From Halorhabdus tiamatea SARL4B (GTDB taxonomy: Archaea > Halobacteriota > Halobacteria > Halobacteriales > Haloarculaceae): 64,000 bases of DNA. Position numbers and translations under genes: made by a program. Below are positions 264-60,973 of this stretch, one piece after another; the stretch's first letter is position 1; each line of letters begins with the position of its first letter. The stretch is from the NCBI RefSeq assembly GCF_000470655.1, contig NC_021913.1:1-64000 (forward strand). Reading direction: 5' to 3'. The notes below the pieces were generated by a model. The model was not told the DNA's origin, searched no databases, and was given only the letters and a program-made list of their open reading frames with translations.

Positions 264-1358
264 ATGATCCGCGATGCTCGCGTTCTCCGCGCCGGGTTCG
301 TCCCTCGAGAAGTGAGCATCGCGACGCCGAAGTCAACCACCTTTCTAGCGTTCTAGAGCCCATCACAAACGGGGAACCCGCCGACACGGCCATCGTCACT
401 GGACCCAGCGGCGCCGCAAGACGTGCATCTCGCAATTCGTCACGGAACGACTTCGGGAAGAGGTCCTCGACGTCGAAACCACCTACGTCAACTGCTGGCG
501 CAACTACACCCGATTTCGGACGCTCTACCAGATCCTCGAAGACCTCGGAGCGACCATCGACATCCACCGGCAGTCGACGCCCCACGACGAACTCGTCGAT
601 CGCCTCCAGCAACATGACGGCCCGCGAACCATCGCATCCTTGACGAGGTCGACCAGCTCGAAGACCCCAGCGTCATCTACGACCTCCACAGCCTCCCTCA
701 GTTCGCGATCATCTGTATCGCCAACAAGGAAGAGGAGCTGTTCAGCCGCGTCGACGACCGCCTCGTGAGCCGCCTGCGCTCCAGCGAACACGTCCGGATG
801 GACAAGTACCACGACGAGCAGCTGTACGACATTCTGAGTGCGCGGGCGAAGTGGGGACTCGATGAGGACGTCATCACTGACGACCAGCTCTACCGGATCG
901 CCGACGCGGCCGCCGGCGACGCTCGCCTCGCAATTGGCATCCTCCGAACGGCCGCCGGCAAGGCCGATCGCGAGAACCACGAACGAATCACCGACGACAT
1001 CCTCCTGGACGCCACCGAGGATGCTCGGGCCCAGATCAAGCAGAAGAGCCTCGACTCGCTCACGCCGCACCAGCGCGTCGTCTACGACGTCGTTCACGAG
1101 CACGGCCCGGTCGGGCCGAGCGAGATCTACGAGCACTATTCCGAGGACGTCGATGATCCGCGAACGAAGCGGACTGTACGGGCGTATCTGTCTAAGACGA
1201 CTCAATACAACCACCTCGAAGCAGACGGATCCAGCCGAGATCGGGAATACCAGCCATCGACCAGCCATCTCCCACACTCGCTGAGCAGGGTGATTATAGA
1301 GCTGATAGGTCGTGTTTTGTGGATCGGAAAATTGTACCCCAGTGATTTATTACTATAG
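264..1358 (+). pseudogene. Decayed Orc1/Cdc6 replication initiator with at least three frameshifts
   Basis: An Orc1/Cdc6 initiator (AAA+ ATPase that binds origins) can be read by hopping between frames. The start at 264 gives MIRDARVLRAGFVPRE; a shift near 312 moves to EHRDAEVNHLSSVLEPITNG. A one-base loss in the Walker A glycine codon (about 416) changes GPSGAGKT, and a shift near 634 leads into the Walker B motif ILDEVDQL (636 onward). From there the frame stays open through the sensor and winged-helix regions to 1358. The extreme C-terminus (after about 1280) no longer looks like the family. Neighbouring DNA has no intact partner copy. I am confident of the family and of the loss of function, because the nucleotide-binding loop itself is hit. 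Two intact orc1 genes near 45-49 kb presumably do the work of this replicon. Confidence 0.87.
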
Positions 1359-6198: not shown

Positions 6199-7217
6199 TC
6201 TGAGTCCTCCGTGAGATTAGCTGCAAAGCGATCGAATGCGTCGACATCACCGTCTTCATCTGGATCCGCGTACAAAACGCCATGCTCGCCGTGTTCTTCT
6301 GGGGCAGTATCTAGTGCTGATTCAGTACTGTCTTCGGTCGTCGAGTCAGACTCCGACGATTGGTTGTTTTGGGACGTATTTGACCCGGTCGGCTCGGCGG
6401 AAGTTTCGTGGGTGAATTCTCGGTTCCGTGTACTCACTGCTGGTTCGATAGTCGGTGGCTGCCGATCCAGTGGGTCGATCTCCTGAAGGGTAGACGGGAG
6501 TGGTGGAAGGTCGTTGAGGATGTCGTCGTATTCCTCCTGGGTTAGGTCATGTTGTTCAACGATTGTGCCGAGAACATCGTGGGAGAGTTGAACGTCAGTA
6601 AACCACTGGTCGAGTGTCGGTTGCTCGATAAGTGTGATCTCTTTGGTCTCTGCTACTTCGTGAGCGTCATCGGTGAACGATGAGTTGGAAACGATCACAG
6701 TCGATGAGGCACCGCGACCCGTCGCCGGAGTGGTGTTCCCCTCAGCGACGGTGTGCACGATGTCACTGCCGCGGGTGGTCCCCGAGTCGGTGGGCGCAGT
6801 TTTGATAGCGACGGTCGTGTGCTGGCGGTTCCAAAAGAGATCCACGTCGGCGTCGTCAACGGCTTCTGGTGTCTGGAAGCTTCCCTCATAGCGGGAGAGA
6901 GTGGCTCCAAGGATCCGGGCGAAATCATGAGCGTTCAGATATGCCATGTCTGCGGCAGACACAATCCGTGACGGCGAGGTTCGTAGTGGGCCCGTGTCGG
7001 TAGTAGACGACGCTGTCTCAGTGTTGTCGGGGAGTTGATCGCGAGCGTTTTTGACGAGAGTTGTGACCCGGTCACGGGGCGCGTCGAGTTCGTGCGTTGC
7101 GAGGACATCCACGATTAGCTCGGTTGTAATCGCATCGTATTCGATTGCGCGTCGAATGGACTCGGTGATCGATCCTGGTTGATACCACTGAGGCTGTGAC
7201 TGTTGCTGTTGACTCAT
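6195..7217 (-). CDS. Mrr-like restriction-endonuclease-fold protein
   Basis: A 340-residue protein. Residues about 105-210 look like an Mrr-type PD-(D/E)XK domain: DFARILGATLSRYEG, then DDADVDLFW, then TTVAIKTAP, then ASSTVIVSNSSFTDDA and WFTD. Mrr enzymes cleave (often modified) DNA. The acidic residue of DVDLFW and the Lys of AIK are placed like the family catalytic D and K. The position that is usually E or Q (E/Q-x-K) is Ala, so activity is uncertain. An N-terminal helical region (1-75) may be a winged helix. The long tail (about 250-340) is Ser/Thr/Glu/Asp-rich and probably disordered. It overlaps by four bases at both ends with its operon neighbours (zinc-array protein upstream, WPS protein A downstream), so it is very likely the effector or DNA-binding part of one system. 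Confidence 0.75.
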   Translation of the reverse strand: MSQQQQSQPQWYQPGSITESIRRAIEYDAITTELIVDVLATHELDAPRDRVTTLVKNARDQLPDNTETASSTTDTGPLRTSPSRIVSAADMAYLNAHDFARILGATLSRYEGSFQTPEAVDDADVDLFWNRQHTTVAIKTAPTDSGTTRGSDIVHTVAEGNTTPATGRGASSTVIVSNSSFTDDAHEVAETKEITLIEQPTLDQWFTDVQLSHDVLGTIVEQHDLTQEEYDDILNDLPPLPSTLQEIDPLDRQPPTIEPAVSTRNREFTHETSAEPTGSNTSQNNQSSESDSTTEDSTESALDTAPEEHGEHGVLYADPDEDGDVDAFDRFAANLTEDSE

Positions 7218-10200
7218 TTGAACACCCCGCGGAGTCGATCGATGAAACCGACTTTTCGCCGATGCACGACCTCATTAGTCGCTCGATTGACGACGACGAT
7301 CTGGTTAGCTTTGAGCAGGTGTTTCCCATACACGATGAGATACGCGCGGTTCGATGCGCCGCGAACCGATCGGAACTCGTCTACGAGATCGTCCGGAATG
7401 GAGTGAGTCGTCTCTCCGATCGAGGCGCATGTCTCGCAGCGGCCGTCCTCTATTAAGCGCGGCGCGTAGCGCTGCTCACAGAGTTCGCAGGTCTCGGCGT
7501 GCTTCTCACAGATAGGTTGCTGGCTGATTGGGGCTGTGATAGTGTGTTTGTCACAGAGTTGCTCGTCGCCGACAATGCACCTGTTGAGGTGCTCTGGGCA
7601 CCGCTTTGCAGGCGGCTCCTCCGGTTTGCTAGCGCAGTGTGCACAGTAATCCAGGTGGCGCTCGCAGAACAGCTCGCCGTCTTCTGCACAGGGGACTGCG
7701 TGGTCGCTACACCGGGGTTCGCCACATGCAGCACAGGTGATCTGGTCGCCTTCACAGACTGGTTCGCCGCAGGCTGTACACGCCTCGGTATGGCTGGCAG
7801 CGAACGGCTGGTCGCAATCAGTACAGTGAACGGCGTCTGCTTCACAGATGAGGTCATCGCAGCCGGCGCAATCAAGGAGATGGTCAGCACAGAAGGCTTC
7901 CCCGCAGTCGTAGCACTGAGCGATATGGTCGGGGCAATAACCAGAGGCGTTACAGACGGTGCATTTCGTGATGTCATCCGGACAGGTGACGGAACCGCAG
8001 TCGCCACATTGGCTTGCATGTGATGGGCAGACCGCGTTGCCACAGGTGTCACAAGTCAGGGCGTCTGTATCACAGTACGGTTGTTCGCAGTGTGCGCATT
8101 CAACGATATCGTCAACACAGAACGTTTCCCCACAGTGTGTACAGTCGCGGGCGTGGTCGGGGCAGACCGTTGTGTCGCAGGCGGTACAGTCGTTCCGGTG
8201 GGTCGAGCATATTGGGTCGTCGCAGTGATCGCAGGCGTCGAGATGGATTGGACAGTAGTCGTCCCCGCAGTGCAGGCACTCGGTTGCATGCGTGATGCAG
8301 CGAGTGTCTCCGCATTCGGCACAGGTTGTTGAGTGTGACGAGCAGTGTTGCTCTCCGCATTCGCTGCACGTAGTACTGTGGTCGTCACACGTCCAGTTGT
8401 GGCACTCTGCGCAGTTCGTGAGATCGTCGTAGCAGAACTGCTCACCGCAGTCTACACACGTGGTGGTGTGGTTGGTGCAGAATTGGTCGCCGCAGTCTGC
8501 GCAAGTCTCGACGTGAGCTGGACAGACGATGTCGCCGCAGTCGGTACATTCGGTGGCGTGATCTGAGCCGATTGTGTCATTACAGATGTCGCAGACAACC
8601 GTGTGGTCCGTACAGTGACACCCGTCGCAGTGCGCGCATTCGGCGGCGTGGTCAGTACAGACGGTGTCGCGACACGTCTCACAGGTTTTCGTATGGGTAT
8701 CGCAGACAGGATTCTCGCCGATCGCACAGAGAGAAGTGTGGTCGGCGCAAGCGTCGCTGCCGCACACATGGCACGATTGGACGTTGTCGGACGTGTGATA
8801 GCCATCACAGTGCGAGCAGTAGCTGGCGTGGTCCGGACAAAGATCACCCCCGATATTGATTGCTGGGACGCGGTCGGTGGTGCAAAACCCGCCGTCACAA
8901 ACCGCACACTGTCCTAAGTGGTCATCACAGGTAGGTCCAGCACAGGCGTCGCAGTCACTTACGTGGTCAGGGCAGTGGAGGGCACTGTCGTCGGTGCAGG
9001 CGGTGAGATGATCGTCACAGTGGAATCGATCACAGGTTTCACACTGACCACCACAGAGCGAGCACACCGGCTCGTCGTCGGTCGAGCATTGTTTTCGGTG
9101 GGCTGCACAGACGCTGCGGCCACAGGTGCTGCATGATGTATGACAGTCAGGACATTCCACAGTACCACAGTACTCGCAGGCGGGAAACGCGTCAGCGGTC
9201 TCTCCACAAACGAGCACACCACAGCCATCACATTCCTTTCGACACTCTTGGCAGATTACATGCCCGTCGTCACAGACAACCGGTGAGCCTGCGTCTTCGA
9301 AAGATCGCCCGCAGTCCGAACAGGTGAACGAGCCGAAAGTATTGTTCGCTGGCGTATATTCAATAGTAGTTTCGCCAATACGGTCTCCATCTCGGACTTT
9401 GACCGACAGCTCGCCGACATCGTAGGTAATAATCGTCGTGCCGACAGCAACAACATCGATATCGACGGCGTGTCGCGCTTGCGTTTTCGAGATCTGCTCT
9501 TGTTCTTCTGTGCGGAGTGTCTCTTTCCGCTCGGCAACCGTAGGTTTGAGGTCCTCAAGCTCTCGTTCGGCGTCGCGTTTGTTCGAGAGATACTCCTTGC
9601 GGGTCTTTTCGTATTGAGCGCTGCGGGCTTTCCGCTTCCACTTCCGGATTTTCTGACGTTGTGCCTCAAGTTCCGCGTCAAGCTCTTGGCGTCGTTGCTC
9701 ATAGAGTTCCTGAATTTCTGCTTCGCGCTCGCTAGCTGCCGTGCTGGCTTCCGTTCCGAGTTCCTCAGTGTCCGGCTGGATCCGCTCTTTTAGCGCCTCA
9801 ACCGCCTTGTTGTAGAGCTGTTCGGCTCGATCCACCGAGAGATCAACCGGGTCGTGTTGCTCTGAGTCAGCGTCTGTAGCGAGTGTGTCGAAGTGCGCGA
9901 CGAATCGGTCAGTGAGATCTGGAAGTCGTACTCCGCTGTCGATATCGAATGTGATGGTCTCAAATCGTTCCCGATGGTAAGATTGAACGCAATCCATCTG
10001 GACGTGGTAGTGGAACGCGGCTGCGTTCTCTCTCTCGCCGGCGTTGAAACCGTCAGTAGTGATTTCGGTGTCAAGTCTGTCGAATACCGGTGGGGTGTGC
10101 ATCTGGAGGTTCGAAGGCCCGAGATGTACGTATCCGACATGGTCACCGTCCCGGGCTGTTTCTAGGAGAGAGTTAAAGAATGTCGTGCCGGGTCGAACGA

Positions 10201-10501
10201 CGATATCGCCGGCTCCGGGATCCATGTCCTCGGTGTCGAAAACGAGAGTTGTCTTCGGTTGCGTTGTCGATGGGGTCTTGTCTTCGATACCGGCCGCGAT
10301 CGCGTCCAGGGTGTCGTTGCCCGTCTCTCCGGATTGGTTGGTGCTGTTACTCGTAGAGACAGTGGAGAGGCTGGGCGGGAGCGTTGCTTCCCAGCGGTCT
10401 GACGTGGATCGGTCCACAGAGCCACCGTTGGATTCGATGACTGCTTCGGTGAGTCGTTTGATGCTCACGCGATTCAGGACACTCGTGTCGATTGAGTTCA
10501 C
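7214..10501 (-). CDS. Giant zinc-knuckle array protein (about 35 Cys/His repeats)
   Basis: A 1095-residue protein. Residues 1-235 form a globular region, including VVRPGTTFFNSLLETARDG, which resembles the accessory region after the helicase core in HepA/RapA-like ATPases. About 235-345 is a charged coiled coil (RQELDAELEAQRQKIRKWKR). Residues 393-1025 are a nearly unbroken array of about 35 units of 15 residues, of the form C-x2-C-x4-C-x2-H/D-x3, for example CTDCGDIVCPAHVET. Each unit can supply zinc ligands; some positions are Asp instead of His. A 70-residue tail rich in basic and hydrophobic residues (YLIVYGKHLLKANQIVVVN) ends the protein. Both gene ends overlap neighbours by four bases. 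The array is probably a rigid zinc scaffold binding DNA, RNA or protein. Nothing named that I know has this architecture. Confidence 0.85.
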   Translation of the reverse strand: MNSIDTSVLNRVSIKRLTEAVIESNGGSVDRSTSDRWEATLPPSLSTVSTSNSTNQSGETGNDTLDAIAAGIEDKTPSTTQPKTTLVFDTEDMDPGAGDIVVRPGTTFFNSLLETARDGDHVGYVHLGPSNLQMHTPPVFDRLDTEITTDGFNAGERENAAAFHYHVQMDCVQSYHRERFETITFDIDSGVRLPDLTDRFVAHFDTLATDADSEQHDPVDLSVDRAEQLYNKAVEALKERIQPDTEELGTEASTAASEREAEIQELYEQRRQELDAELEAQRQKIRKWKRKARSAQYEKTRKEYLSNKRDAERELEDLKPTVAERKETLRTEEQEQISKTQARHAVDIDVVAVGTTIITYDVGELSVKVRDGDRIGETTIEYTPANNTFGSFTCSDCGRSFEDAGSPVVCDDGHVICQECRKECDGCGVLVCGETADAFPACEYCGTVECPDCHTSCSTCGRSVCAAHRKQCSTDDEPVCSLCGGQCETCDRFHCDDHLTACTDDSALHCPDHVSDCDACAGPTCDDHLGQCAVCDGGFCTTDRVPAINIGGDLCPDHASYCSHCDGYHTSDNVQSCHVCGSDACADHTSLCAIGENPVCDTHTKTCETCRDTVCTDHAAECAHCDGCHCTDHTVVCDICNDTIGSDHATECTDCGDIVCPAHVETCADCGDQFCTNHTTTCVDCGEQFCYDDLTNCAECHNWTCDDHSTTCSECGEQHCSSHSTTCAECGDTRCITHATECLHCGDDYCPIHLDACDHCDDPICSTHRNDCTACDTTVCPDHARDCTHCGETFCVDDIVECAHCEQPYCDTDALTCDTCGNAVCPSHASQCGDCGSVTCPDDITKCTVCNASGYCPDHIAQCYDCGEAFCADHLLDCAGCDDLICEADAVHCTDCDQPFAASHTEACTACGEPVCEGDQITCAACGEPRCSDHAVPCAEDGELFCERHLDYCAHCASKPEEPPAKRCPEHLNRCIVGDEQLCDKHTITAPISQQPICEKHAETCELCEQRYAPRLIEDGRCETCASIGETTHSIPDDLVDEFRSVRGASNRAYLIVYGKHLLKANQIVVVNRATNEVVHRRKVGFIDRLRGVFK

Positions 10502-35628: not shown

Positions 35629-37074
35629 GGTCGTGTCGCAAAGCGGTCTAGAGTTTGCCTCTGGTACTCTCAATTGAGAGGTCACAGCTCATTGCTGTTT
35701 TGGTCGATCGCTGGAGCAGTTCATCAAGGAACGCCTGGTAGTGCTCTGGATCAGCGTACTTCACCAGCCGAAGCTGGAGTATCGCCTCTAATCCCTCCGT
35801 TGTCCAGCGCATCCACTGGTTCTTGCATCGCTTGCTGACTTCGCCCATCAGCCGTTCGACGGGGTTCGAGGTCCACGGCACCTCGAACCCCTCGACAGCC
35901 TGCTCGGCAAACGTCACGATCGACGGCACCCACCGCCGAAGATACCCCGCAGCCTTCTCTGACCCGTACTGATCCAACTGCCACGCTGTCTTCTCGATAC
36001 GCTCGGTCGTTCGCGCGATCCGCTCGCGGATCGCCGCGAACTCCTCTTCCGGCCGGTGCTTGGCGACCGAATTCTTCAGATGGAACACCTCGTCGATCAC
36101 CTCCGAGACGATCTCGTTTCGTCGATCCAAGGAGAACACGCCGTCGTCCCAGAGGTTGTAGTCCAGTGTTCGGCCGACGTGGACGAGATCAAGTTGGTGA
36201 TTGCGATTTTCGTCGGTAAAGGCCGTGACCATACCCTCCTCAGCGTCACTGACGACCGTCGCGTCGTCAGTGACTGCGTCGATGTCGTCGAGGTCGGCGG
36301 CTGTCTCGTCCCAGTCAGCGTTGACCGAGAGATCCAGCAGGGAGCGGGACTCCTCGGCAGTATCTTTGCCGAGCGTGGCTTGGACGGAGTGGTACGAGCG
36401 GTCGTCGTCTTGACTGTGACACTTCGTGGCGTCAGGAATAACCGCATCAGCGTCTGTGTCAGCGACACAGTCTGGAAGGAACTGTTTGAGCTTGCTGCCG
36501 TATTCTCTGGCGCGGCGGTTGATCGTGGTCGGCGACGGCATCTCCGAGAGGATGCCGTCGCCGTGGTCAGCGGCGTCACGATAGCTGAGCGAGGTAGCGA
36601 GATCGACGCTCTTGGCCGCAATGTCCTGCTGATAACGGTTTTCTCCGTCGAAGCTAAGAACATCTTCGACGGGGCGGAAGTAGCTGGGTTCGTCGTGGTC
36701 AGCGGCGGTATCTTCGACGTAGTGAAGGTCGAATTCGTGCTCACCGGCGGTTGTGACGGCCGTGCGGGTATCGGTACCGGCGCGTTGGTAGCGCTGGTCA
36801 CCGTTGCCGTGGGCGTGTTTTTCACCACAGAGCGCCTCGACGCGAGCCGCGTCGAGGCTCTCGACGAGTCCTTCGAGAAGAACTGATTCGATGTTCTGAT
36901 CGGTGATGAACTCGGCAAGCGTGGCCAGCGGTATCGTTTTGTCGTCGTCGATGCTAACGGTCAACCGCACGTCGATTGTGGCGTGCATGGGGCACCTCTC
37001 GGAGTGGACACCAGAGGCGTCCCCTTCCTCAGGGGAGTCAGTTACTGAACTCTAGAGGACTTTGCGACACGACC
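35629..37074 (-). mobile_element. ISH6-like insertion sequence, copy 1
   Basis: A 1446-bp element with terminal inverted repeats beginning GGTCGTGTCGCAAAG at both ends, and an 8-bp target duplication AAAGATCT on each side (35621-35628 and 37075-37082). Length and duplication size fit ISH6. It is inverted relative to copy 2, which appears identical. Confidence 0.88.
35648..36988 (-). CDS. ISH6-like transposase, copy 1
   Basis: A 446-residue transposase that fills its element. It begins MHATIDVRLTVSIDDDKTIP. Candidate DDE residues are D in AVIPDATKCHS (about 190), D in ATVVSDAEEGM (about 250) and E in SNPVERLMGEVSKRCKN (about 380). The zinc-like C/H residues CGEKHAHGNGDQRYQRAG near 55 are conserved in both copies. 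The frame is intact and identical to copy 2, so recent transposition is likely. Confidence 0.88.
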   Translation of the reverse strand: MHATIDVRLTVSIDDDKTIPLATLAEFITDQNIESVLLEGLVESLDAARVEALCGEKHAHGNGDQRYQRAGTDTRTAVTTAGEHEFDLHYVEDTAADHDEPSYFRPVEDVLSFDGENRYQQDIAAKSVDLATSLSYRDAADHGDGILSEMPSPTTINRRAREYGSKLKQFLPDCVADTDADAVIPDATKCHSQDDDRSYHSVQATLGKDTAEESRSLLDLSVNADWDETAADLDDIDAVTDDATVVSDAEEGMVTAFTDENRNHQLDLVHVGRTLDYNLWDDGVFSLDRRNEIVSEVIDEVFHLKNSVAKHRPEEEFAAIRERIARTTERIEKTAWQLDQYGSEKAAGYLRRWVPSIVTFAEQAVEGFEVPWTSNPVERLMGEVSKRCKNQWMRWTTEGLEAILQLRLVKYADPEHYQAFLDELLQRSTKTAMSCDLSIESTRGKL

Positions 37075-37428: not shown

Positions 37429-38874
37429 GGTCGTGTCGCAAAGTCCTCTAGAGTTCAGTAACTGACTCCCCTGAGGAAGGGGACGCCTCTGGTGTCCACT
37501 CCGAGAGGTGCCCCATGCACGCCACAATCGACGTGCGGTTGACCGTTAGCATCGACGACGACAAAACGATACCGCTGGCCACGCTTGCCGAGTTCATCAC
37601 CGATCAGAACATCGAATCAGTTCTTCTCGAAGGACTCGTCGAGAGCCTCGACGCGGCTCGCGTCGAGGCGCTCTGTGGTGAAAAACACGCCCACGGCAAC
37701 GGTGACCAGCGCTACCAACGCGCCGGTACCGATACCCGCACGGCCGTCACAACCGCCGGTGAGCACGAATTCGACCTTCACTACGTCGAAGATACCGCCG
37801 CTGACCACGACGAACCCAGCTACTTCCGCCCCGTCGAAGATGTTCTTAGCTTCGACGGAGAAAACCGTTATCAGCAGGACATTGCGGCCAAGAGCGTCGA
37901 TCTCGCTACCTCGCTCAGCTATCGTGACGCCGCTGACCACGGCGACGGCATCCTCTCGGAGATGCCGTCGCCGACCACGATCAACCGCCGCGCCAGAGAA
38001 TACGGCAGCAAGCTCAAACAGTTCCTTCCAGACTGTGTCGCTGACACAGACGCTGATGCGGTTATTCCTGACGCCACGAAGTGTCACAGTCAAGACGACG
38101 ACCGCTCGTACCACTCCGTCCAAGCCACGCTCGGCAAAGATACTGCCGAGGAGTCCCGCTCCCTGCTGGATCTCTCGGTCAACGCTGACTGGGACGAGAC
38201 AGCCGCCGACCTCGACGACATCGACGCAGTCACTGACGACGCGACGGTCGTCAGTGACGCTGAGGAGGGTATGGTCACGGCCTTTACCGACGAAAATCGC
38301 AATCACCAACTTGATCTCGTCCACGTCGGCCGAACACTGGACTACAACCTCTGGGACGACGGCGTGTTCTCCTTGGATCGACGAAACGAGATCGTCTCGG
38401 AGGTGATCGACGAGGTGTTCCATCTGAAGAATTCGGTCGCCAAGCACCGGCCGGAAGAGGAGTTCGCGGCGATCCGCGAGCGGATCGCGCGAACGACCGA
38501 GCGTATCGAGAAGACAGCGTGGCAGTTGGATCAGTACGGGTCAGAGAAGGCTGCGGGGTATCTTCGGCGGTGGGTGCCGTCGATCGTGACGTTTGCCGAG
38601 CAGGCTGTCGAGGGGTTCGAGGTGCCGTGGACCTCGAACCCCGTCGAACGGCTGATGGGCGAAGTCAGCAAGCGATGCAAGAACCAGTGGATGCGCTGGA
38701 CAACGGAGGGATTAGAGGCGATACTCCAGCTTCGGCTGGTGAAGTACGCTGATCCAGAGCACTACCAGGCGTTCCTTGATGAACTGCTCCAGCGATCGAC
38801 CAAAACAGCAATGAGCTGTGACCTCTCAATTGAGAGTACCAGAGGCAAACTCTAGACCGCTTTGCGACACGACC
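37429..38874 (+). mobile_element. ISH6-like insertion sequence, copy 2
   Basis: The same 1446-bp element in opposite orientation, with terminal GGTCGTGTCGCAAAG repeats and an 8-bp target duplication GAGAAATT (37421-37428 and 38875-38882). It sits 354 bp from copy 1 in the same host gene. Because each copy has its own perfect duplication, these are two independent insertions rather than one composite. Confidence 0.88.
37515..38855 (+). CDS. ISH6-like transposase, copy 2
   Basis: Its 446 residues are identical to the copy 1 transposase. The start ATG 37515 lies 86 bases inside the element's left end, and the stop is 19 bases before its right end. Both copies are complete and presumably functional. 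Confidence 0.88.
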   Translation: MHATIDVRLTVSIDDDKTIPLATLAEFITDQNIESVLLEGLVESLDAARVEALCGEKHAHGNGDQRYQRAGTDTRTAVTTAGEHEFDLHYVEDTAADHDEPSYFRPVEDVLSFDGENRYQQDIAAKSVDLATSLSYRDAADHGDGILSEMPSPTTINRRAREYGSKLKQFLPDCVADTDADAVIPDATKCHSQDDDRSYHSVQATLGKDTAEESRSLLDLSVNADWDETAADLDDIDAVTDDATVVSDAEEGMVTAFTDENRNHQLDLVHVGRTLDYNLWDDGVFSLDRRNEIVSEVIDEVFHLKNSVAKHRPEEEFAAIRERIARTTERIEKTAWQLDQYGSEKAAGYLRRWVPSIVTFAEQAVEGFEVPWTSNPVERLMGEVSKRCKNQWMRWTTEGLEAILQLRLVKYADPEHYQAFLDELLQRSTKTAMSCDLSIESTRGKL

Positions 38875-43879: not shown

Positions 43880-44001
43880 GAGATACCATAGCAGAATAGG
43901 TTACTGGCATGGAATTTCCAGCAGTGCCATCAAACGCGTTTGTTGAAAACTCGAGAAAGTGCGGGTGTATAGTGGATTGCATCCGCCAACACCAAGCAAT
44001 G

Positions 44002-44041
44002 TTAACCAACAAATAGTCTCGATGTAGATTCTGTTGGTTAA
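44002..44041. repeat. TTAACCAACA inverted pair, copy 1
   Basis: TTAACCAACA (44002-44011) and TGTTGGTTAA (44032-44041) face each other 20 bases apart. The same design recurs three more times between 44.6 and 47.3 kb with 20-22 bases between arms, suggesting a dimeric binding site. Confidence 0.7.
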
Positions 44042-44087
44042 TCGTAATTCCGACAAAGGTGACCTACCACGTCCGTAGACGATGTGA

Positions 44088-44516
44088 AAGCTTCGGAACC
44101 GCTGGTTGTAAATCACTGTATCTTCTTATTACAGCACAGAGAGCCTATTTCAGGCATATTTTTGATTTGTATCCCACTCCACCGTTTCCGAAGCTTTTGA
44201 GGAGTGGAGGAACTCGAATAAGCACAAGACGAGGGCAGATGAATAGAGATCCCTCCAACCCACACACACCACCATTTCCTAAGCTTCATTGGAAAGAATA
44301 AGTCCAACCAAGACTACGGAAGGTGTATGAGTGGTGTATGATGTCTTGATCTCTTTTCTAGTCCCAATGCGGTTATAGTTAACATATCTAGTACTTAGTT
44401 TTTTCCAGATAGATCTTATTTAAAGAAATACCGGGTGCACCCCTCTCCACCGTTTCCGCTGCTCACCCACCCCTGTTTCCTAAGCTACCGAAGCCACACC
44501 ACTACTTCCTAAGCTT
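44088..44516. repeat. Six iteron-like CCACCGTTTCCGAAGCTT repeats
   Basis: Copies, some degenerate, are at 44088-44105 (inverted), 44179-44196, 44269-44286, 44447-44464, 44469-44487 and 44498-44516. The core is TTTCC-T/G-AAGCTT. They fill an otherwise gene-free 0.4 kb downstream of the first intact orc1. Regular short repeats next to initiator genes are usual for origins or partition sites; the binding protein is not known. Confidence 0.6.
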
Positions 44517-44655
44517 CCCACAGTCCAACTAATCGAAAATTTACAGGCGGAGCAAGCTGAGTGATTCGGTGCTTAGCCCGGGGCGATTCACGATCTCCAT
44601 CGAGAATTCCACCTGTGGCGTCGGTGGCTCATAGGCCATCCACGATCGGCTCTTA

Positions 44656-44696
44656 TTAACCAACAAAACAAGTGTCAGTTTAGGCTTGTTGGTTAA
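44656..44696. repeat. TTAACCAACA inverted pair, copy 2
   Basis: TTAACCAACA (44656-44665) and TGTTGGTTAA (44687-44696) face each other 21 bases apart, directly before the G-run repeat that ends at the orc1 stop. Confidence 0.7.
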
Positions 44697-44756
44697 CTGG
44701 ATATTCACCCGCTATCTTCTAAAAAGTACGAATCATAAACAACGATCAGCAACACA

Positions 44757-44805
44757 CCCCCCGATAGAGTGAAGAGAGTGACACGGGGGGAACTAGAGTG
44801 TAACC
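44757..44805 (+). repeat. G-run ORB-like repeat downstream of the first orc1
   Basis: The unit is a C-run, GATAGAGTGAAGAGAGTGAC, a G-run, then AACTAGAGTGTAA. The same order recurs at 46103-46150 on the other side of the gene. G-runs next to a conserved half site are typical of haloarchaeal origin recognition boxes. Confidence 0.65.
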
Positions 44806-44808
44806 AGC

Positions 44809-46068
44809 TTACGACCGGACAATGTCCACGATATCACCGACACGGCTGTCGTCTTCGAGGGTGTCAAGAATGGATTGTGGGTCAACATCACCAGCGAGTG
44901 AGTAGGTATTTGACATTCCCTGTCCCCGGCCGCGGCCATGACGATCTTTCGCCAAGATGTTCGAGTGAGCGAGGTCGTTGAGCTTCTCACGGAACGTATG
45001 CTGCTTCAATGTGTTTGTATCAATGTATCCACAGAGGTCAAGATACAACCGGTGAAGGTTGGTTGTCTCCCCGATTGAATCATTTAACTCAGCCGAAACG
45101 ACAGTCAGTAGCGCGATTTTGCGTTGTGTCGTTTCAGCACCGATTGTGTCGATCAGGGCTTCTTTCTCGATTTCTTCTTTCGCAGCGCGAACGTGACGCT
45201 CGGCAACAGTGCCGATACCTTCATCATCAGCAAGGTCGCAGGCGTAGGACAGTAACTCAATGGCTTGTCGAGCGTCGCCGGTTTCTTGAGCTGCCATCGA
45301 TGCAGCAAGTGGAATCGTCCCACCGTTGAGGACATCACTTTGGAGATGGGTGAAATCTTCGTGGCCATCTTCGAAGTAAGTATCACGAAGTGCCTGGACC
45401 GCACGGCGCGCAAGGATATTCTTGAGATGGTTAGAATTGTATGGGTTAAACGTAATCTCTCGCTGTCCGAGTGACGAGCGAACGTCAGCGTCGAGATTGT
45501 TCCGGAACTGCAAGTCGTTGGTAATACCGATGAGTCCGATTTTCACGGGATCTGGGTTCGCTCGCGAAAGTTCATACAGGACGTAATCGTCTTCGCCGAT
45601 AGCGTCGATCTCGTCGAGAATGATGATGACGGTCCCGCCAATAGTTTCGAGCTCGTCAAGCACCATCTCGAAAAGCTGTTTTCGCTGGTAGCCACTCGGT
45701 TCATCGACGCCCTGTCCCTTCCGGATCTCGCGAAGTTCCTTGACGAGTCGTGTGAGAACGTGATATGATTTGTCTGCTCCCTTGCACGGAATATGAACGA
45801 CTTCGAGTTGGTGATCGTTTTCGTCTGCCCACTCCTGGAGTTGATCAGCTTTCAACTGGACTCCTGCAGTCTTGCCTTGACCAGTCGGTCCATACACCAA
45901 GACGTCACGAGGCGAACCATCCATCGTCACAGGCCGCAGTGCCATATGTAATTTGTCGAGTTCGTCTTCCCGTTCGGGAAGTTCCGATGGCTTGTACTTC
46001 CCGACATCGGCCTCCAGAACGTCGACATCTTGGTAGATAGTATCCTCGTTCCCGAACCCTTGTGACAT
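44809..46068 (-). CDS. orc1: Orc1/Cdc6 origin-binding initiator, first intact copy
   Basis: A 419-residue initiator. The AAA+ core has Walker A GPTGQGKT (about 60), Walker B IIILDEIDAIG (about 150), sensor 1 IGITNDLQF and an arginine-containing VRSSLGQREI. The lid and winged-helix domain follow (about 280-419), with HTFREKLNDLAHSNILAKDR as recognition helix and wing. The protein binds origin boxes as ATP-bound monomers and loads MCM. G-run repeats lie on both sides of its gene, immediately after the stop and from 35 bases upstream of the start, so it probably recognises those and may regulate itself. It is divergent from the second orc1. Confidence 0.93.
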   Translation of the reverse strand: MSQGFGNEDTIYQDVDVLEADVGKYKPSELPEREDELDKLHMALRPVTMDGSPRDVLVYGPTGQGKTAGVQLKADQLQEWADENDHQLEVVHIPCKGADKSYHVLTRLVKELREIRKGQGVDEPSGYQRKQLFEMVLDELETIGGTVIIILDEIDAIGEDDYVLYELSRANPDPVKIGLIGITNDLQFRNNLDADVRSSLGQREITFNPYNSNHLKNILARRAVQALRDTYFEDGHEDFTHLQSDVLNGGTIPLAASMAAQETGDARQAIELLSYACDLADDEGIGTVAERHVRAAKEEIEKEALIDTIGAETTQRKIALLTVVSAELNDSIGETTNLHRLYLDLCGYIDTNTLKQHTFREKLNDLAHSNILAKDRHGRGRGQGMSNTYSLAGDVDPQSILDTLEDDSRVGDIVDIVRS

Positions 46069-46102
46069 CTTGGCTGGTGTAATGGTGTCATCACTAATAA
46101 AA

Positions 46103-46255
46103 CCCCCTAGTAGAGTGATGAGAGTGATACAGGGGGCGGAAGAGTGTAAGAGAGCACCGGGGGGACGGGGGGTATGAGAGTGTAAAATCTAACAATGGAA
46201 ATGGGGAATAGTTCGAAGTCAGCAGACCCCCACGGGGGGTATGAGAGTGTAAATA
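46103..46255 (+). repeat. G-run ORB-like cluster upstream of the first orc1
   Basis: Three repeats: 46103-46150 (a near match to the one at 44757), 46167-46187 (GGGGGGTATGAGAGTGTAAA) and 46233-46253 (the same). The shared core is a G-run followed by ATGAGAGTGTAA. They lie between orc1 and an AT-rich segment, the usual order in an archaeal origin. Confidence 0.7.
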
Positions 46256-46309
46256 GCCCACGAATACGCCAAACAAGTCTTGATAGTTCAGATCTACGGT
46301 TCAAGTGGA

Positions 46310-46500
46310 TTTTCCGTAGCCCTTTACGTATTTTATATATCTTTCGGTTGGTTCTAGTTAACTAGTACATAGTATGAAGGAAGAAACGGATTATAGAGCC
46401 CGTTATAGTTGAAGATCTACTAGAAGTAGATTTTGTTCTAATCTCACTATAGGATCTCGTAATCGTACCTTTATATGTAATTAACTCTTATTGTTTGGGT
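46310..46500. other. AT-rich candidate duplex-unwinding element
   Basis: About 190 bases strikingly poor in G and C for this genome (ACGTATTTTATATATCTTTC, TTTATATGTAATTAACTC). They are bounded on the left by three G-run repeats and on the right by an inverted one, as expected for an unwinding site of an archaeal origin. Confidence 0.6.
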
Positions 46501-46519
46501 TGGATTAAACTTGGTTGGA

Positions 46520-46550
46520 GTTTACACTCTTCCGACCCCCGGCCCCCCGT
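46520..46550 (-). repeat. G-run ORB-like repeat, inverted
   Basis: GTTTACACTCTTCCGACCCC followed by C-runs is the reverse complement of the G-run/GAGTGTAA box. It faces the cluster at 46.1-46.25 kb across the AT-rich stretch, giving inverted boxes around the unwinding site. Confidence 0.6.
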
Positions 46551-46724
46551 CCGGGTCGGAGAACCGACTATCATCGCCGTCTATCACTCCGGGGATCTAC
46601 AGTAACCCAGATGGAACACCTCCCAGAGTGTGAATAGTGGGAATTAGTCCGCCCATGCCAAACAACGATTCCACACAACAACCGTCAACGAGATATTAAT
46701 ACGTTCCCTGTTCACTATTGTGTT

Positions 46725-46910
46725 ATGAGGAGAATTGGGCTCCGACAATTGTCAATCACACTCCTTGGGATTGCCATGATCACCATCGGGATGCTAGGAA
46801 TCGGCGGCCATCTCTCGGCAGGACCACTCCTCATTGGAGCGATTTTGATCGGCACATCCCTCATTTCGTTTCATCTCGGACAGCGATTTTCTCACGGCCG
46901 CCAAGCGTGA
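46725..46910 (+). CDS. Small two-helix membrane protein inside the origin region
   Basis: 61 residues: MRRIGLRQLSITLLGIAMIT, then a second hydrophobic helix GPLLIGAILIGTSLISFHLG, with basic ends. A TATA-like ATATTAATACG about 35 bases upstream supports expression. Its place between two origin halves is unusual. Whether it matters for replication is unknown. Confidence 0.55.
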   Translation: MRRIGLRQLSITLLGIAMITIGMLGIGGHLSAGPLLIGAILIGTSLISFHLGQRFSHGRQA

Positions 46911-47037
46911 AGCTTGGCGGCGTAGCGAGCGACATGTTGGTGTTAATTTGGAACACTCGTTGAGAGTGTTGACTTATCTGAAAGAACTCCCCTCTGGCAG
47001 CGTCGATAACTCGTTGGACATCAGTGGTTATCTTATA

Positions 47038-47078
47038 TTAACCAACATAATGAGTGAATCCGGACTAGAGTTGGTTAA
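47038..47078. repeat. TTAACCAACA inverted pair, copy 3
   Basis: TTAACCAACA (47038-47047) faces AGTTGGTTAA (to 47078). One arm has a single change from the consensus; the arm spacing is about 21 bases. Confidence 0.65.
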
Positions 47079-47289
47079 GATGGTTAGACAATTCGGCGTT
47101 CCACTCACTTTCACTATTTGTGCCTTCTTCAGGGGAACTGCGTCGCGCACGGTAGCACAGGGGATTTTTGAGTGACCTCGGCCTCTGGTGACCGGAGCTG
47201 GTGTGCTGAAACGATCGGGCGAAGTTTCGTCTTGAACCCGCTAAGACCCGAATTCAGGAGTTACCTCCATTTGCGGCCACTGACGATTA

Positions 47290-47331
47290 TTAACCAACAC
47301 AAAGCGTTTATCACGGGCAAATGTTGGTTAA
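47290..47331. repeat. TTAACCAACA inverted pair, copy 4
   Basis: TTAACCAACA (47290-47299) faces TGTTGGTTAA (47322-47331). This pair lies 60 bases before the first box of the second orc1 family. Confidence 0.7.
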
Positions 47332-47390
47332 ACTCGAAACCGTAAAACACGAGGACGGCACAGTACAGCGGTTCCAGGGCAAAATATGGG

Positions 47391-48059
47391 TACACCTCTC
47401 TATCGAAGTGTTCCAACAGAGAGTGCGGGACGATAAATTGGCAAGCCATATCCAAAATCAAGGAGAGATCAAGCAAAACTACCCCGAAAAAACAGACACA
47501 CCTCTATCGATGTGTTCAGACCAGGCTAATACAATGGCACAAGAAATGTTGAACAGACTGAAGCAGAGTGATCAAACGAGAATACGAGAGATATCAAGCA
47601 ATAGAAGAGCTGTAGATACAAGATAGCAAGATTATGAAGGGATATTCCGATTGGATACAAAGAATTGGAAATAGAAGACAAACAAACATATCGAACACAT
47701 CGATAGAGGTGTGTGTGAGTGTCTCTTCTAGTAAGCTAGAAGAAGAATGAAGAGAAGAATCCAACCTAGTCACATTCATACCTCACAGAAATCAGGTGCA
47801 GACTCTCTAACTAATTGATTCAACTAATAGAAGTCTCGCTATTACCTCTTTAGCTTTCGTTTCCTTGTTTTGAAGCACCCCACACCGGTAGCCACGAACA
47901 CTTCGATAGAGGGGTGTGTGTCTCACCCCCTTCTTTCTGAATCTCTTCCCGAAACATCTCGTTGTCCCCCTTCGGAAATCTACCGTAAAACTATCTTAGA
48001 CTGCTCTAATCCTAAGTATCATCAACTGAATCGCTAAATCACACATCGATACAGGTGGG
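47391..48059. repeat. ORB-like cluster of the second orc1
   Basis: Five boxes share ACACCTCTATCGATGTGTTC: 47391-47414 and 47495-47517 (forward), 47693-47717, 47896-47920 and 48039-48059 (reverse). Forward and reverse boxes face each other across an AT-rich tract (about 47560-47880), another candidate unwinding site. The last box overlaps the promoter of the second orc1, suggesting autoregulation. Confidence 0.75.
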
Positions 48060-48093
48060 AAGATTTTTAGTCCCTGCTTGTGTTGGCGCCCAC

Positions 48094-49554
48094 ATGGATA
48101 CTTACGAATCCGACGGTTCCAGCACTGATCAGGAATCATCGGAGACGGAGACCTCAACGCATGCGGACCTTTCAACGGAACCTCCTGACACGGACCCGAA
48201 CGCGGCATCTACCGATAGTTCGCCGTTTGGAGAGTCACTCAATACAAAACAAGTGTCGGGTTCGCAGTCGATCGAGGACATGCTTCTAGAGTTCGACGTA
48301 CAAGACGCGCTCATCCGTGATCGGTCACTCCTTGATCCGAACTATGTCGTTGATGAGGACCGCATCGTCGGTCGCGATGAACAACTCCAAAAAGTCACAA
48401 AGATGCTTCGCGTCGCGCTTGGGGACAATCGGCCCCCGAATCTCTTCCTCTACGGCCCTTCCGGGACTGGAAAGTCGCTCATCACGAAGGCTGTCTGCAA
48501 GAACATCAGTCGGCTCTGTAGTTCCCGGGATATCGAGTTCGGCACGATCGAAGTCAACTGCCAGGACCTCGATACGCTCGGCGTCGCAGTCTACGAACTC
48601 GCTCAACAAGCCGCGACTGAGGCCGGTGTTGACGTCGAAGTCCCAAAACACGGTGTGGCGACCAAGGAGAAATGGGACGAACTCTACCGCATCGTCAACG
48701 AAAACTTCGATTCCGTCGTCTTCGTCCTCGACGAACTGGACATGCTCGTCGGTCGCCGTGATAAGCAGGACCCTGCGTTTTCCCGACTGCTCTACCAACT
48801 GTCGCGGGCTGGAGCCGACGACGATATCACTGCGCACATCTCCGTGGTTGCCATCTCGAACGACACGAAGATGATGGAATCTGTTGGCAGTCGTGCGCTG
48901 AGCTCATTCACGCCCGAGGACGTTCACTTCGACGATTACGACGCGAACCAACTCCAAGCGATCCTTCGCCGCCGCCAAGACGCCTTCCACGACGGCGTCG
49001 TCGGGGAGGAAGTCATTCCACTGGCAGCGGCGTTCGCCGCCCAGACGCACGGTGACGCACGGAAAGGGATCGACTTGATGCGCGTCGCTGGTGAACTTGC
49101 CGAACGTGAAGGCGACGAGCGCGTTCGCGAACAACACGTTCGGGAAGCCCAGGACAAAGTCGAGAAGAACCGCGTCCTTGAGGTCGTTCGCGGCATCACC
49201 ACACAGAAGAAACTCTGCCTGTACGCGACGGCGGCTGTCGCTGTCGAGACGAATGACGGGACGGCCCGAAGTACGACTGGCTATCGGGTGTATCAGTACC
49301 TGACTGACTCGATCGAGGCGGACCAATATCAACAGGAGTCGTACGTGAACAAGATGAAGGAGTTGACGACGTATTCTCTCGTGGACTTCGAGCGACGGAG
49401 TCATGGCCCCAGCTCCGGGATGTTCCTTGAGTTCAAGTTCGGCGAACGGCCGGAAACCATCTTGGAGACTCTACGTGAGGACTCCCGTCTTGAGAGGGTC
49501 TCGGAGAGTGAGGTCACCTCGGTGGTACGAGCCCAGACGCGAAACGAAACTTGA
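48094..49554 (+). CDS. orc1: Orc1/Cdc6 origin-binding initiator, second intact copy
   Basis: A 486-residue initiator from ATG 48094. A 60-residue acidic disordered leader (TDQESSETETSTHADLSTEP) is followed by the AAA+ core: Walker A YGPSGTGKSL (about 128), Walker B VVFVLDELDML (about 220) and sensor 1 VAISNDTKMM. A lid and a winged helix end in RLERVSESEVTSVVR. The GTG at 48055 is rejected as start because it lies within an ORB-like box. Five boxes of one family lie upstream and one downstream (49590), so this protein very probably recognises them. It is only distantly similar to the first orc1, consistent with two separate origin specificities. Confidence 0.93.
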   Translation: MDTYESDGSSTDQESSETETSTHADLSTEPPDTDPNAASTDSSPFGESLNTKQVSGSQSIEDMLLEFDVQDALIRDRSLLDPNYVVDEDRIVGRDEQLQKVTKMLRVALGDNRPPNLFLYGPSGTGKSLITKAVCKNISRLCSSRDIEFGTIEVNCQDLDTLGVAVYELAQQAATEAGVDVEVPKHGVATKEKWDELYRIVNENFDSVVFVLDELDMLVGRRDKQDPAFSRLLYQLSRAGADDDITAHISVVAISNDTKMMESVGSRALSSFTPEDVHFDDYDANQLQAILRRRQDAFHDGVVGEEVIPLAAAFAAQTHGDARKGIDLMRVAGELAEREGDERVREQHVREAQDKVEKNRVLEVVRGITTQKKLCLYATAAVAVETNDGTARSTTGYRVYQYLTDSIEADQYQQESYVNKMKELTTYSLVDFERRSHGPSSGMFLEFKFGERPETILETLREDSRLERVSESEVTSVVRAQTRNET

Positions 49555-49589
49555 CTAGGCCTCAATTGCTTTCGATCGAGAACGCTGGG

Positions 49590-49610
49590 GACACCCCTCT
49601 ATCGATGTGT
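49590..49610 (+). repeat. ORB-like box downstream of the second orc1
   Basis: GACACCCCTCTATCGATGTG lies 35 bases after the orc1 stop and matches the five boxes upstream of the same gene. The gene is thus bracketed by its own boxes. Confidence 0.65.
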
Positions 49611-49715
49611 ATCTGAGAGGTGTTTGCATGGATTGCCGTCGTAGTCGGTTTCACCTCTAGTAATGTTCTGCCACCGTTCACTATCAGTTTGCTTGTTATA
49701 GACTGAACAGGCGCA

Positions 49716-49830: not shown

Positions 49831-51435
49831 GTATGTGTTTAGCCCGAACTGATTTCGATGCTGTCTCATAGGAGGCGCATAAGTTGGGCTGTATGAACTG
49901 GCAGCAGAGGTTCGTGATGATCCTCAGGGATGGGCTCCGTCGTGGAGCCCATCCCGTTGCCTCTGCTGTCTGTACTGGAAGGTGGGATCTTTGAACAGAG
50001 ATAATCTCACCAAAGAGGAGTTGTTCTCCCGGTTTTTACAACTTGAACAACGAGTCGAAGAGGTTGAACAAGAGAACGCACAGCTTCGAGAGAAGTTACA
50101 AGAGAAAGACGAGCGGATCGAAGAACTCGAAACACGTCTTCGCAAATACGAGAATCCGCACACTCCACCCAGCAAGCGACGGTCGGGGACCGACGAGTCC
50201 CCGACCTCGCAAGATGACGAAGACGACGATCTCCGAACTGACGGTGGCACTCCCGGTCGGAAAGACGGTCACGATCCGGAGTGGCGTTCTACAGCTGATC
50301 CCGACGAAGAAATCGAAGTCACCTGTGACCGTTGTCCCGAGTGTGGCGACCACTTCGACGAGTCGGTGGGCGTCAGCCCCCGACTCGTCGAGGAGATCCC
50401 TGATCCGCAGCCCCCAGAGATCACCCGGTACAACCGCCACTACTACCAGTGCGATTCCTGTGGAACAGAGACAGTTGCGGCTCACCCCGACTGCCCCGAT
50501 GAGGGGCAGTTCGGGGTGAACGTCATCGCTCAATCAGCTCTGTCACGGTACGATCACCGCCTTCCTTACCGGAAGATCGCTGATCGCTTCGAGCAACTAC
50601 ACGGACTCGAACTCTCGGGTGCATCCGCGTGGCACGCGACCGAGCGCGCTGCACGCGCCGGTCGCTGTGAGTACGAGCAGATCCGTCAAGAGATTCTGGA
50701 TGCTGACGTGGTTCACATCGACGAGACAGGCATCAAACGCGACGGTGAACAGGCATGGATTTGGACGTTTCAGACCGTCCAACATACGTTGTACGCGGTC
50801 AGGGAGAGTCGTGGAAGTGATGTTCCCGCGGAAGTCCTCGGCGAGGACTTCGCGGGAACGGTGGTCTGTGACGGGTGGACGGCGTACCCAGCTTTCAGCA
50901 GCAACCTCCAGCGGTGCTGGGCGCACATTCTTCGAGAGGCTGAAGACGCCGCGGAAAAGCAGGCGGAAGGTGAACCGATCTACCAGGCTCTCAGACAGGT
51001 ATACGTCGCTCTCCAGGCCCGGCTGGAGAGCGACCCAAGTCCTCGTGAGAGAGCAAACCTCCAGCGTGTGGCGCGAAGAGAGCTTGAATCGCTGATTGAC
51101 CGGTCAGTACCCGACGGACCAGTGGCAACACTGCTCGGGAAGATCGAAGGAGGTCTCGACCACTGGCTCACCTTCGTCGGTGAGCCAGCGGTCTCTCCGA
51201 CAAACAATGCCGCAGAGAACGCGCTTCGGGAGCCAGTAGTTCTCCGGAAAATCATCGGAACGCTCCGTAATGAACGAGGAATGTTCGTTCACGAGACGGT
51301 CTTGTCCCTGCTGGCGACGTGGCGCCAGCAGGGACGCAATCCATACGAAGAGCTTCGTCGAGTCGTCAGCAACAATGAAATGATCTCACGGGCTCACGCT
51401 GTGCCGGCTGTCGAGACCTCGGGGTAAACACGTAC
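49831..51435 (+). mobile_element. IS66-family insertion sequence, copy A, without matching target duplication
   Basis: A 1605-bp element with ends GTATGTGTTTAGCCCGA and, inverted, GTACGTGTTTACCCCGA. The 8 bases outside are GAATCGAG on the left and GATTCGGC on the right, which do not match. Copy B (59.4 kb) is the same length and has a perfect duplication. The mismatch implies that DNA next to copy A was lost or rearranged after insertion. Confidence 0.85.
49982..51427 (+). CDS. IS66-family transposase (ISH10-like), copy A
   Basis: A 481-residue transposase. It begins with a leucine-zipper-like coiled coil (about 10-55: EELFSRFLQLEQRVEEVEQE). A zinc motif has CDRCPECGDHFDE (about 118) and CDSCGTET (about 155). 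The DDE residues are D in VVHIDETGIKRDG (about 245), D in VVCDGWTAYPAF (about 298) and E in NNAAENALREPVVLRK (about 425). No separate tnpA or tnpB accessory gene is present in the element, as usual for archaeal IS66 forms. It is identical in sequence to copy B. The GTG 49982 start could instead be TTG 49991. Confidence 0.9.
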   Translation: MGSLNRDNLTKEELFSRFLQLEQRVEEVEQENAQLREKLQEKDERIEELETRLRKYENPHTPPSKRRSGTDESPTSQDDEDDDLRTDGGTPGRKDGHDPEWRSTADPDEEIEVTCDRCPECGDHFDESVGVSPRLVEEIPDPQPPEITRYNRHYYQCDSCGTETVAAHPDCPDEGQFGVNVIAQSALSRYDHRLPYRKIADRFEQLHGLELSGASAWHATERAARAGRCEYEQIRQEILDADVVHIDETGIKRDGEQAWIWTFQTVQHTLYAVRESRGSDVPAEVLGEDFAGTVVCDGWTAYPAFSSNLQRCWAHILREAEDAAEKQAEGEPIYQALRQVYVALQARLESDPSPRERANLQRVARRELESLIDRSVPDGPVATLLGKIEGGLDHWLTFVGEPAVSPTNNAAENALREPVVLRKIIGTLRNERGMFVHETVLSLLATWRQQGRNPYEELRRVVSNNEMISRAHAVPAVETSG

Positions 51436-59368: not shown

Positions 59369-60973
59369 GTACGTGTTTACCCCGAGGTCTCGACAGCCGG
59401 CACAGCGTGAGCCCGTGAGATCATTTCATTGTTGCTGACGACTCGACGAAGCTCTTCGTATGGATTGCGTCCCTGCTGGCGCCACGTCGCCAGCAGGGAC
59501 AAGACCGTCTCGTGAACGAACATTCCTCGTTCATTACGGAGCGTTCCGATGATTTTCCGGAGAACTACTGGCTCCCGAAGCGCGTTCTCTGCGGCATTGT
59601 TTGTCGGAGAGACCGCTGGCTCACCGACGAAGGTGAGCCAGTGGTCGAGACCTCCTTCGATCTTCCCGAGCAGTGTTGCCACTGGTCCGTCGGGTACTGA
59701 CCGGTCAATCAGCGATTCAAGCTCTCTTCGCGCCACACGCTGGAGGTTTGCTCTCTCACGAGGACTTGGGTCGCTCTCCAGCCGGGCCTGGAGAGCGACG
59801 TATACCTGTCTGAGAGCCTGGTAGATCGGTTCACCTTCCGCCTGCTTTTCCGCGGCGTCTTCAGCCTCTCGAAGAATGTGCGCCCAGCACCGCTGGAGGT
59901 TGCTGCTGAAAGCTGGGTACGCCGTCCACCCGTCACAGACCACCGTTCCCGCGAAGTCCTCGCCGAGGACTTCCGCGGGAACATCACTTCCACGACTCTC
60001 CCTGACCGCGTACAACGTATGTTGGACGGTCTGAAACGTCCAAATCCATGCCTGTTCACCGTCGCGTTTGATGCCTGTCTCGTCGATGTGAACCACGTCA
60101 GCATCCAGAATCTCTTGACGGATCTGCTCGTACTCACAGCGACCGGCGCGTGCAGCGCGCTCGGTCGCGTGCCACGCGGATGCACCCGAGAGTTCGAGTC
60201 CGTGTAGTTGCTCGAAGCGATCAGCGATCTTCCGGTAAGGAAGGCGGTGATCGTACCGTGACAGAGCTGATTGAGCGATGACGTTCACCCCGAACTGCCC
60301 CTCATCGGGGCAGTCGGGGTGAGCCGCAACTGTCTCTGTTCCACAGGAATCGCACTGGTAGTAGTGGCGGTTGTACCGGGTGATCTCTGGGGGCTGCGGA
60401 TCAGGGATCTCCTCGACGAGTCGGGGGCTGACGCCCACCGACTCGTCGAAGTGGTCGCCACACTCGGGACAACGGTCACAGGTGACTTCGATTTCTTCGT
60501 CGGGATCAGCTGTAGAACGCCACTCCGGATCGTGACCGTCTTTCCGACCGGGAGTGCCACCGTCAGTTCGGAGATCGTCGTCTTCGTCATCTTGCGAGGT
60601 CGGGGACTCGTCGGTCCCCGACCGTCGCTTGCTGGGTGGAGTGTGCGGATTCTCGTATTTGCGAAGACGTGTTTCGAGTTCTTCGATCCGCTCGTCTTTC
60701 TCTTGTAACTTCTCTCGAAGCTGTGCGTTCTCTTGTTCAACCTCTTCGACTCGTTGTTCAAGTTGTAAAAACCGGGAGAACAACTCCTCTTTGGTGAGAT
60801 TATCTCTGTTCAAAGATCCCACCTTCCAGTACAGACAGCAGAGGCAACGGGATGGGCTCCACGACGGAGCCCATCCCTGAGGATCATCACGAACCTCTGC
60901 TGCCAGTTCATACAGCCCAACTTATGCGCCTCCTATGAGACAGCATCGAAATCAGTTCGGGCTAAACACATAC
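59369..60973 (-). mobile_element. IS66-family insertion sequence, copy B, with perfect target duplication
   Basis: A 1605-bp element, inverted relative to copy A. Ends GTACGTGTTTACCCCGA and GTATGTGTTTAGCCCGA. The 8-bp target duplication CATCAGCT lies at 59361-59368 and 60974-60981. It is a simple, recent insertion into a kinase-like gene. Confidence 0.9.
59377..60822 (-). CDS. IS66-family transposase (ISH10-like), copy B
   Basis: 481 residues, identical to copy A, with the same coiled-coil, zinc and DDE motifs. Both copies therefore arose recently from one source. Confidence 0.9.
   Translation of the reverse strand: MGSLNRDNLTKEELFSRFLQLEQRVEEVEQENAQLREKLQEKDERIEELETRLRKYENPHTPPSKRRSGTDESPTSQDDEDDDLRTDGGTPGRKDGHDPEWRSTADPDEEIEVTCDRCPECGDHFDESVGVSPRLVEEIPDPQPPEITRYNRHYYQCDSCGTETVAAHPDCPDEGQFGVNVIAQSALSRYDHRLPYRKIADRFEQLHGLELSGASAWHATERAARAGRCEYEQIRQEILDADVVHIDETGIKRDGEQAWIWTFQTVQHTLYAVRESRGSDVPAEVLGEDFAGTVVCDGWTAYPAFSSNLQRCWAHILREAEDAAEKQAEGEPIYQALRQVYVALQARLESDPSPRERANLQRVARRELESLIDRSVPDGPVATLLGKIEGGLDHWLTFVGEPAVSPTNNAAENALREPVVLRKIIGTLRNERGMFVHETVLSLLATWRQQGRNPYEELRRVVSNNEMISRAHAVPAVETSG

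Follow-up and report, generated by a model that had tools for sequence, protein, structure and literature searches.

What does it mean for a single haloarchaeal megaplasmid to carry two unlike orc1 genes close together, each within its own family of repeats? The pair lies in the window analyzed here, the opening 64,000 bp of a replicon of Halorhabdus tiamatea SARL4B that measures 330,369 bp (C1); the other contig of the genome measures 2,815,791 bp. A sequence-only reading had taken the region for two autonomous initiator-origin cassettes placed back to back, possibly through the fusion of two replicons.

Two initiator genes and their box families

Both genes, designated orcA and orcB (Table 1), are full length, and both products are Orc1/Cdc6 proteins (Pfam; NCBIfam TIGR02928) with AAA+ and winged-helix domains. 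At 29% identity, OrcA and OrcB are as unlike as first described. The sequence-only reading was also right in its coordinates and in flanking each gene with a box family of its own, with an inverted set around an AT-rich stretch. Inverted ORB-like repeats adjoin orcA and orcB alike, enclosing an AT-rich core in each case, and a further box lies past the 3' end of each gene.

The A box comprises a G-run, 3 to 6 nt, and GAGTGTAA. Its five copies, all round orcA, are the sole A boxes on the entire replicon, and none arose in 200 shuffles of the region. AT content is 62 to 68% across 46250-46499. The B box reads CTCTATCGA[A/T]GTG and occurs six times in the window against 0.27 expected; on C1, B boxes are confined to the surroundings of orcB and of an inverted orcB copy (92.2-94.9 kb), plus one stray. 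AT-rich windows at origin B run on past the core to 47849. The classical ORB consensus has no convincing match in the region.

Table 1. Coordinates of the orc genes, candidate origins, palindromes, and neighboring features (window positions, which are also C1 positions, unless stated)
Feature	Position	Strand	Remarks
C palindrome	44002-44041		TTAACCAACA-N20-TGTTGGTTAA
Candidate origin D	44087-44517		D boxes 44087 (-), 44175, 44265, 44445 (degenerate), 44466, 44495 (+)
Truncated remnant of 107-aa 'MSYEPPTPP' protein gene	44541-44639	-	MAYEPPTPQVEFSMEIVN...
C palindrome	44656-44696		16 nt before pseudogene 44541-44639
A box beyond orcA 3' end	44756-44803	+	box 44785-44803; C-run/G-run inverted repeat, 79% identical to 46102-46149
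orcA	44809-46068	-	Orc1/Cdc6 initiator, 419 aa; Walker A GPTGQGKT; C-terminal winged helix
Candidate origin A, left half	46102-46252	+	three A boxes: 46132-46149, 46167-46185, 46234-46252
Candidate origin A, AT-rich core	46253-46521		269 bp between convergent A boxes
Candidate origin A, right half, inverted A box	46522-46540	-	
C palindrome	47038-47078		one half-site off by one base
Duplicated cassette B block	47282-49699	+	inverted copy at C1 92451-94867, 93.7% identical, 2.4 kb
C palindrome	47290-47331		at the outer end of cassette B; first B box 66 bp away; duplicate has it at 94818-94859
Candidate origin B, left half	47398-47514	+	B boxes 47398-47410, 47502-47514
Candidate origin B, AT-rich core	47515-47695		181 bp, 64% AT; length conserved in other plasmids
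Candidate origin B, right half	47696-48054	-	B boxes 47696-47708, 47899-47911, 48042-48054
orcB	48094-49554	+	Orc1/Cdc6 initiator, 486 aa
B box beyond orcB 3' end	49597-49609	+	single box
IS66-family transposase	49982-51427	+	cassette B homology stops at 49,699, about 280 bp before
Further C palindromes	C1 91729, 94818, 196144, 201215, 203934, 205538, 239908; chromosome 1758843		
107-aa 'MSYEPPTPP' protein genes	C1 91785-92108 (+), 200883-201200 (-); pNRC200 VNG_RS11815		

In other genomes, each box family is kept with the same Orc family. A boxes accompany the OrcA of genomes G268 (98% identical), G105 (85%), and G242, G178, and G221 (60 to 61%), as well as that of Natrinema gelatinilyticum and Halocatena salina (58 to 59%); the G191 OrcA locus has a single A box. 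Bar stray matches, they are absent from Halorussus caseinilyticus (58%) and from many OrcA relatives of 50 to 57% identity. A boxes are thus found in most of eight further loci at or above ~58% identity and in nearly none of the more distant ones. The OrcB comparison covers 30 loci: that of the window, and 29 in other haloarchaeal genomes. All 30 have B boxes, five to nine per locus with at most one mismatch, and none has an A box. In most of them, as in the window, convergent B boxes lie 181 to 182 bp apart.

B cassettes occur without A in most genomes. Among 40 complete plasmids listed, some twenty have an OrcB and no other detectable Orc (e.g., PL131, Natronomonas pharaonis), so that cassette B can serve as the sole Orc-type origin of a replicon. 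A plasmid whose only Orc is an A-box-bearing OrcA was looked for and not found, so the autonomy of cassette A is less certain than that of cassette B.

A third box set and a second cassette B

The D boxes at 44.09 to 44.52 kb, four long palindromes, and a second copy of cassette B had escaped the sequence-only reading. The D box, CCACC[A/G]TTTCC[G/T]AAGCT, occurs in 44 of 292 haloarchaeal genomes, and in the window D boxes surround an AT-rich stretch (44350-44449) downstream of orcA. In eleven other loci they flank another Orc family, whose members are 84 to 99% identical to that family's reference and ~36% identical to OrcA; the A and B loci of other genomes have none. No D-family orc gene is present on C1 or the chromosome: the best full-length match reaches 37%, and the Orc encoded at 1.409 Mb on the chromosome reaches 43% across a part of its length. 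Judged by its boxes, D is an orphan origin: its ORB set is that of a different Orc family, which has no gene in this genome. With no cognate orc adjoining it, D is an incomplete member of the origin family. The idea of two initiator-origin cassettes with separate box families is upheld by gene-box linkage in other genomes and by the B-only plasmids, but the number of box families rises from two to three.

Haloarchaeal origin families are defined by each Orc keeping its own ORB boxes (PMC3528665). As in the survey of Wu et al. (2012), each Orc here has its own ORB family, inverted ORBs enclose an AT-rich core, ORBs sometimes lie on both sides of the gene, and transposases or integrases are found near many origins (PMC3528665). 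In two genomes, that survey also noted a single orc gene with two dissimilar sets of ORBs nearby (PMC3528665). Here, in contrast, two orcs and three ORB families lie within 5.6 kb, and the D set is without an initiator genome-wide. Multi-origin haloarchaeal replicons are a known kind, of which the triple stack with its orphan array is a further variant.

Other Orc-like genes are also encoded on C1. OrcC (199347-200741), about 28% identical to the D-family Orc, lies near a PolB-like gene (196374-198521), and the cumulative GC skew peaks near it. As an origin locator, GC skew failed: it is weak, has no turning point at 44 to 49 kb, and reaches its cumulative extremes close to 189 kb and to both ends of the record, which counts against the pile-up of origins favored below. 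A truncated Orc-like gene (window 765-1358) retains just the lid region (Cdc6_lid, E = 4e-14) and the C-terminal part, and it stayed incomplete when the two ends of the record were joined.

The twin orcB (C1 92596-94056, minus strand) lies 43 kb away, and its product is 96% identical to the window OrcB. Across 487 codons the copies have 35 synonymous and 18 non-synonymous differences, which suggests constraint. The twin cassette adjoins an intact ParA gene (90524-91405) and a gene for a 107-aa protein. As the twin OrcB could act in trans on the window's origin B, and either OrcB on either copy, half B is probably not independent in the strict sense. The claim of autonomous cassettes thus holds in part: the B-only plasmids speak for it, and the near-identical OrcB that may act in trans speaks against it.

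One B box lies past the orcB 3' end in the window copy, compared with three in the twin, usually two to five in relatives, and eleven ORBs in oriC2D of Haloarcula hispanica; orcA has one A box there. The layout resembles that of H. hispanica oriC2-cdc6E, with ORBs upstream as the origin and others downstream of the initiator gene (PMC3936714), which in the window may form a titrating array. It differs from oriC2D in the count of downstream boxes for B and its twin. A replicon needs no more than one active origin-cdc6 pair, and boxes beyond the initiator gene have a negative effect (PMC3936714). If the oriC2 titration model (PMC3936714) applies, the window copy of B should be less restrained than its twin.

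Several repeated or unusual genes lie elsewhere in the window. An IS66-family transposase gene identical to that at 49982-51427 is found in opposite orientation at 59377-60822, with a near-identical copy at 157.2 to 158.8 kb of C1. A UPF0236-like gene, probably for a transposase, forms two near-identical inverted copies (35648-36988 and 37515-38855). A 1,095-aa protein with many Cys-rich, zinc-finger-like repeats is encoded on the minus strand at 7214-10501, adjoining an SNF2-type helicase gene.

A palindrome near the orc genes

The C palindrome, TTAACCAACA-N20-23-TGTTGGTTAA, has 12 copies in the genome. Eleven are on C1, where they crowd the orc regions at 44 to 47, 92 to 95, and 196 to 206 kb, and the family is present in both the A and B halves, a further point against two separate cassettes as first proposed. 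It occurs in 200 of 292 haloarchaeal genomes, compared with one for a reversed control. We examined 80 loci encoding the closest relatives found of the 107-aa protein, and the figures hold for that part of the family. The palindrome lies upstream of the gene in 78 of the loci (12 to 18 nt before the start codon in 77), its spacer is fixed at 21 bases in 74, and 66 have an orc gene no more than 3 kb away. The palindrome occurs in 160 of 161 genomes with a strong homologue, versus 40 of 131 others, a link partly built in because the palindrome precedes the gene. In 11 of the 30 OrcB loci, a palindrome lies at most 250 bp outside the outermost B box.

Pfam and PHROGs yielded no credible family for the 107-aa protein, and its structure model (mean pLDDT 77, pTM 0.40), in which helices precede a sheet of three strands, had no match among solved structures at E <= 0.001. 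At C1 91 kb the palindrome has a ParA gene next to it, but as a constant partner ParA was rejected, a relative being near in 3 of the 80 loci and within 1.5 kb in none. Literature searches on the palindrome half-sites returned unrelated papers only, and those on haloarchaeal ParA/ParB palindromes nothing relevant; no paper among those searched describes the C palindrome.

The C palindrome may be an operator or a centromere. Its distance from the start codon would fit an operator in a haloarchaeal promoter, and a centromere would agree with its clustering around origins. In the broad-host-range plasmid RK2, the KorB/ParB operators are copies of one palindrome, placed at several promoters of the plasmid and close to where it replicates. 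The C palindrome is reminiscent of this arrangement, but it is archaeal, and the likeness is an analogy of layout. We put forward only tentatively, and as rather unlikely, that the palindrome and the 107-aa protein form a plasmid-wide haloarchaeal maintenance system, with the palindromes as operators and perhaps a centromere set tied to orc origins. If true, they would link the separate origins in the stack into one control circuit.

How the stack may work and how it may have arisen

Close orc pairs (within about 7 kb) are not unique to this replicon: of 15 other genomes, roughly 4 or 5 contain at least one. In G105, A again lies beside B, but tail to tail, and orcB is split by an insertion sequence (a transposase-like gene), indicating that paired origins need not both work. 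In N. gelatinilyticum, H. salina, and G242, OrcA is head to head with Orcs of mutually different families (34 to 41% identical among the three), so that the A cassette adjoins different Orc families in different genomes. Such pairing might reflect a joint origin, with OrcA and OrcB acting together on both cores. A second orc within about 6 kb is indeed found at 5 of 9 A-box loci (four head to head) versus 2 of 23 box-less relatives, with a Fisher p of about 0.01 in a post hoc comparison. We nevertheless regard joint action as very improbable: the partners come from different families, no box common to both was found, and B cassettes do without A in most genomes.

The suggestion that two replicons fused, an A-type plasmid with a B-type plasmid, bringing their origins back to back, is in our view unlikely. 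In N. gelatinilyticum, H. salina, and Halorubrum lacusprofundi, OrcA- and OrcB-type genes do occupy separate plasmids or lie a long way from each other on a single one, and several C palindromes, normally origin-linked, crowd the region. Against this, the fuller B backbone is that of the twin, with its ParA and 107-aa genes, and only the cassette-sized 2.4-kb block is common to both loci; the tail-to-tail order in G105 and the changing neighbors of A also count against one fusion, and the unrelated origin remnant D would need explaining too. For A in G268 as for the B duplicate, the blocks shared with the window are mainly cassette-sized. Small common blocks, changing partners, and changing orientations favor cassette capture over a single fusion.

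A stronger contender, to which we give somewhat less than an even chance, is that only A or B fires and the other is a dormant or decaying spare. Origin D is already a relic, the paired orcB of G105 is disrupted, the window cassette B has fewer downstream boxes than its twin and lies near an insertion sequence, and dormant origins are known in Haloferax mediterranei (PMC4595724). Decay is harder to reconcile with two full-length genes retaining ATPase and winged-helix domains, with intact A and B box sets of conserved spacing, and with the constraint suggested by the codon differences between the OrcB copies.

We favor, with a probability of about 0.72, the view that the region is a pile-up of orc-linked origins on a megaplasmid, with cassettes A and B complete and D reduced to its boxes, which arose by cassette capture or duplication. 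A and B would then be complete replicator-initiator units arranged head to head. Each Orc would bind the boxes of its own family to either side of its AT-rich core, melt the core, and load MCM. Titration of the initiator by the box past the 3' end of each gene would hold firing back, as shown for oriC2 of H. hispanica. OrcA would serve origin A only. Each copy of origin B could be served by OrcB from the window locus and by that from the twin (92.6-94.1 kb). Having lost its initiator, origin D would stay silent unless a D-type plasmid entered the cell. The stack would have grown as small origin cassettes were captured and duplicated again and again with the help of insertion sequences.

On this pile-up reading, the stack preserves stages of origin turnover at one site, namely a duplicated cassette B, a full cassette A, and the orphan array D. 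The locus offers a test of origin specificity for two unlike Orcs 2 kb apart and, through the naturally occurring B copies with either one or three boxes beyond the gene, a test of titration. Most haloarchaeal genomes sampled contain the palindrome-protein module, which is relevant to the little understood coordination or segregation of large haloarchaeal plasmids, and the megaplasmid shows how such replicons may gain spare replication starts.
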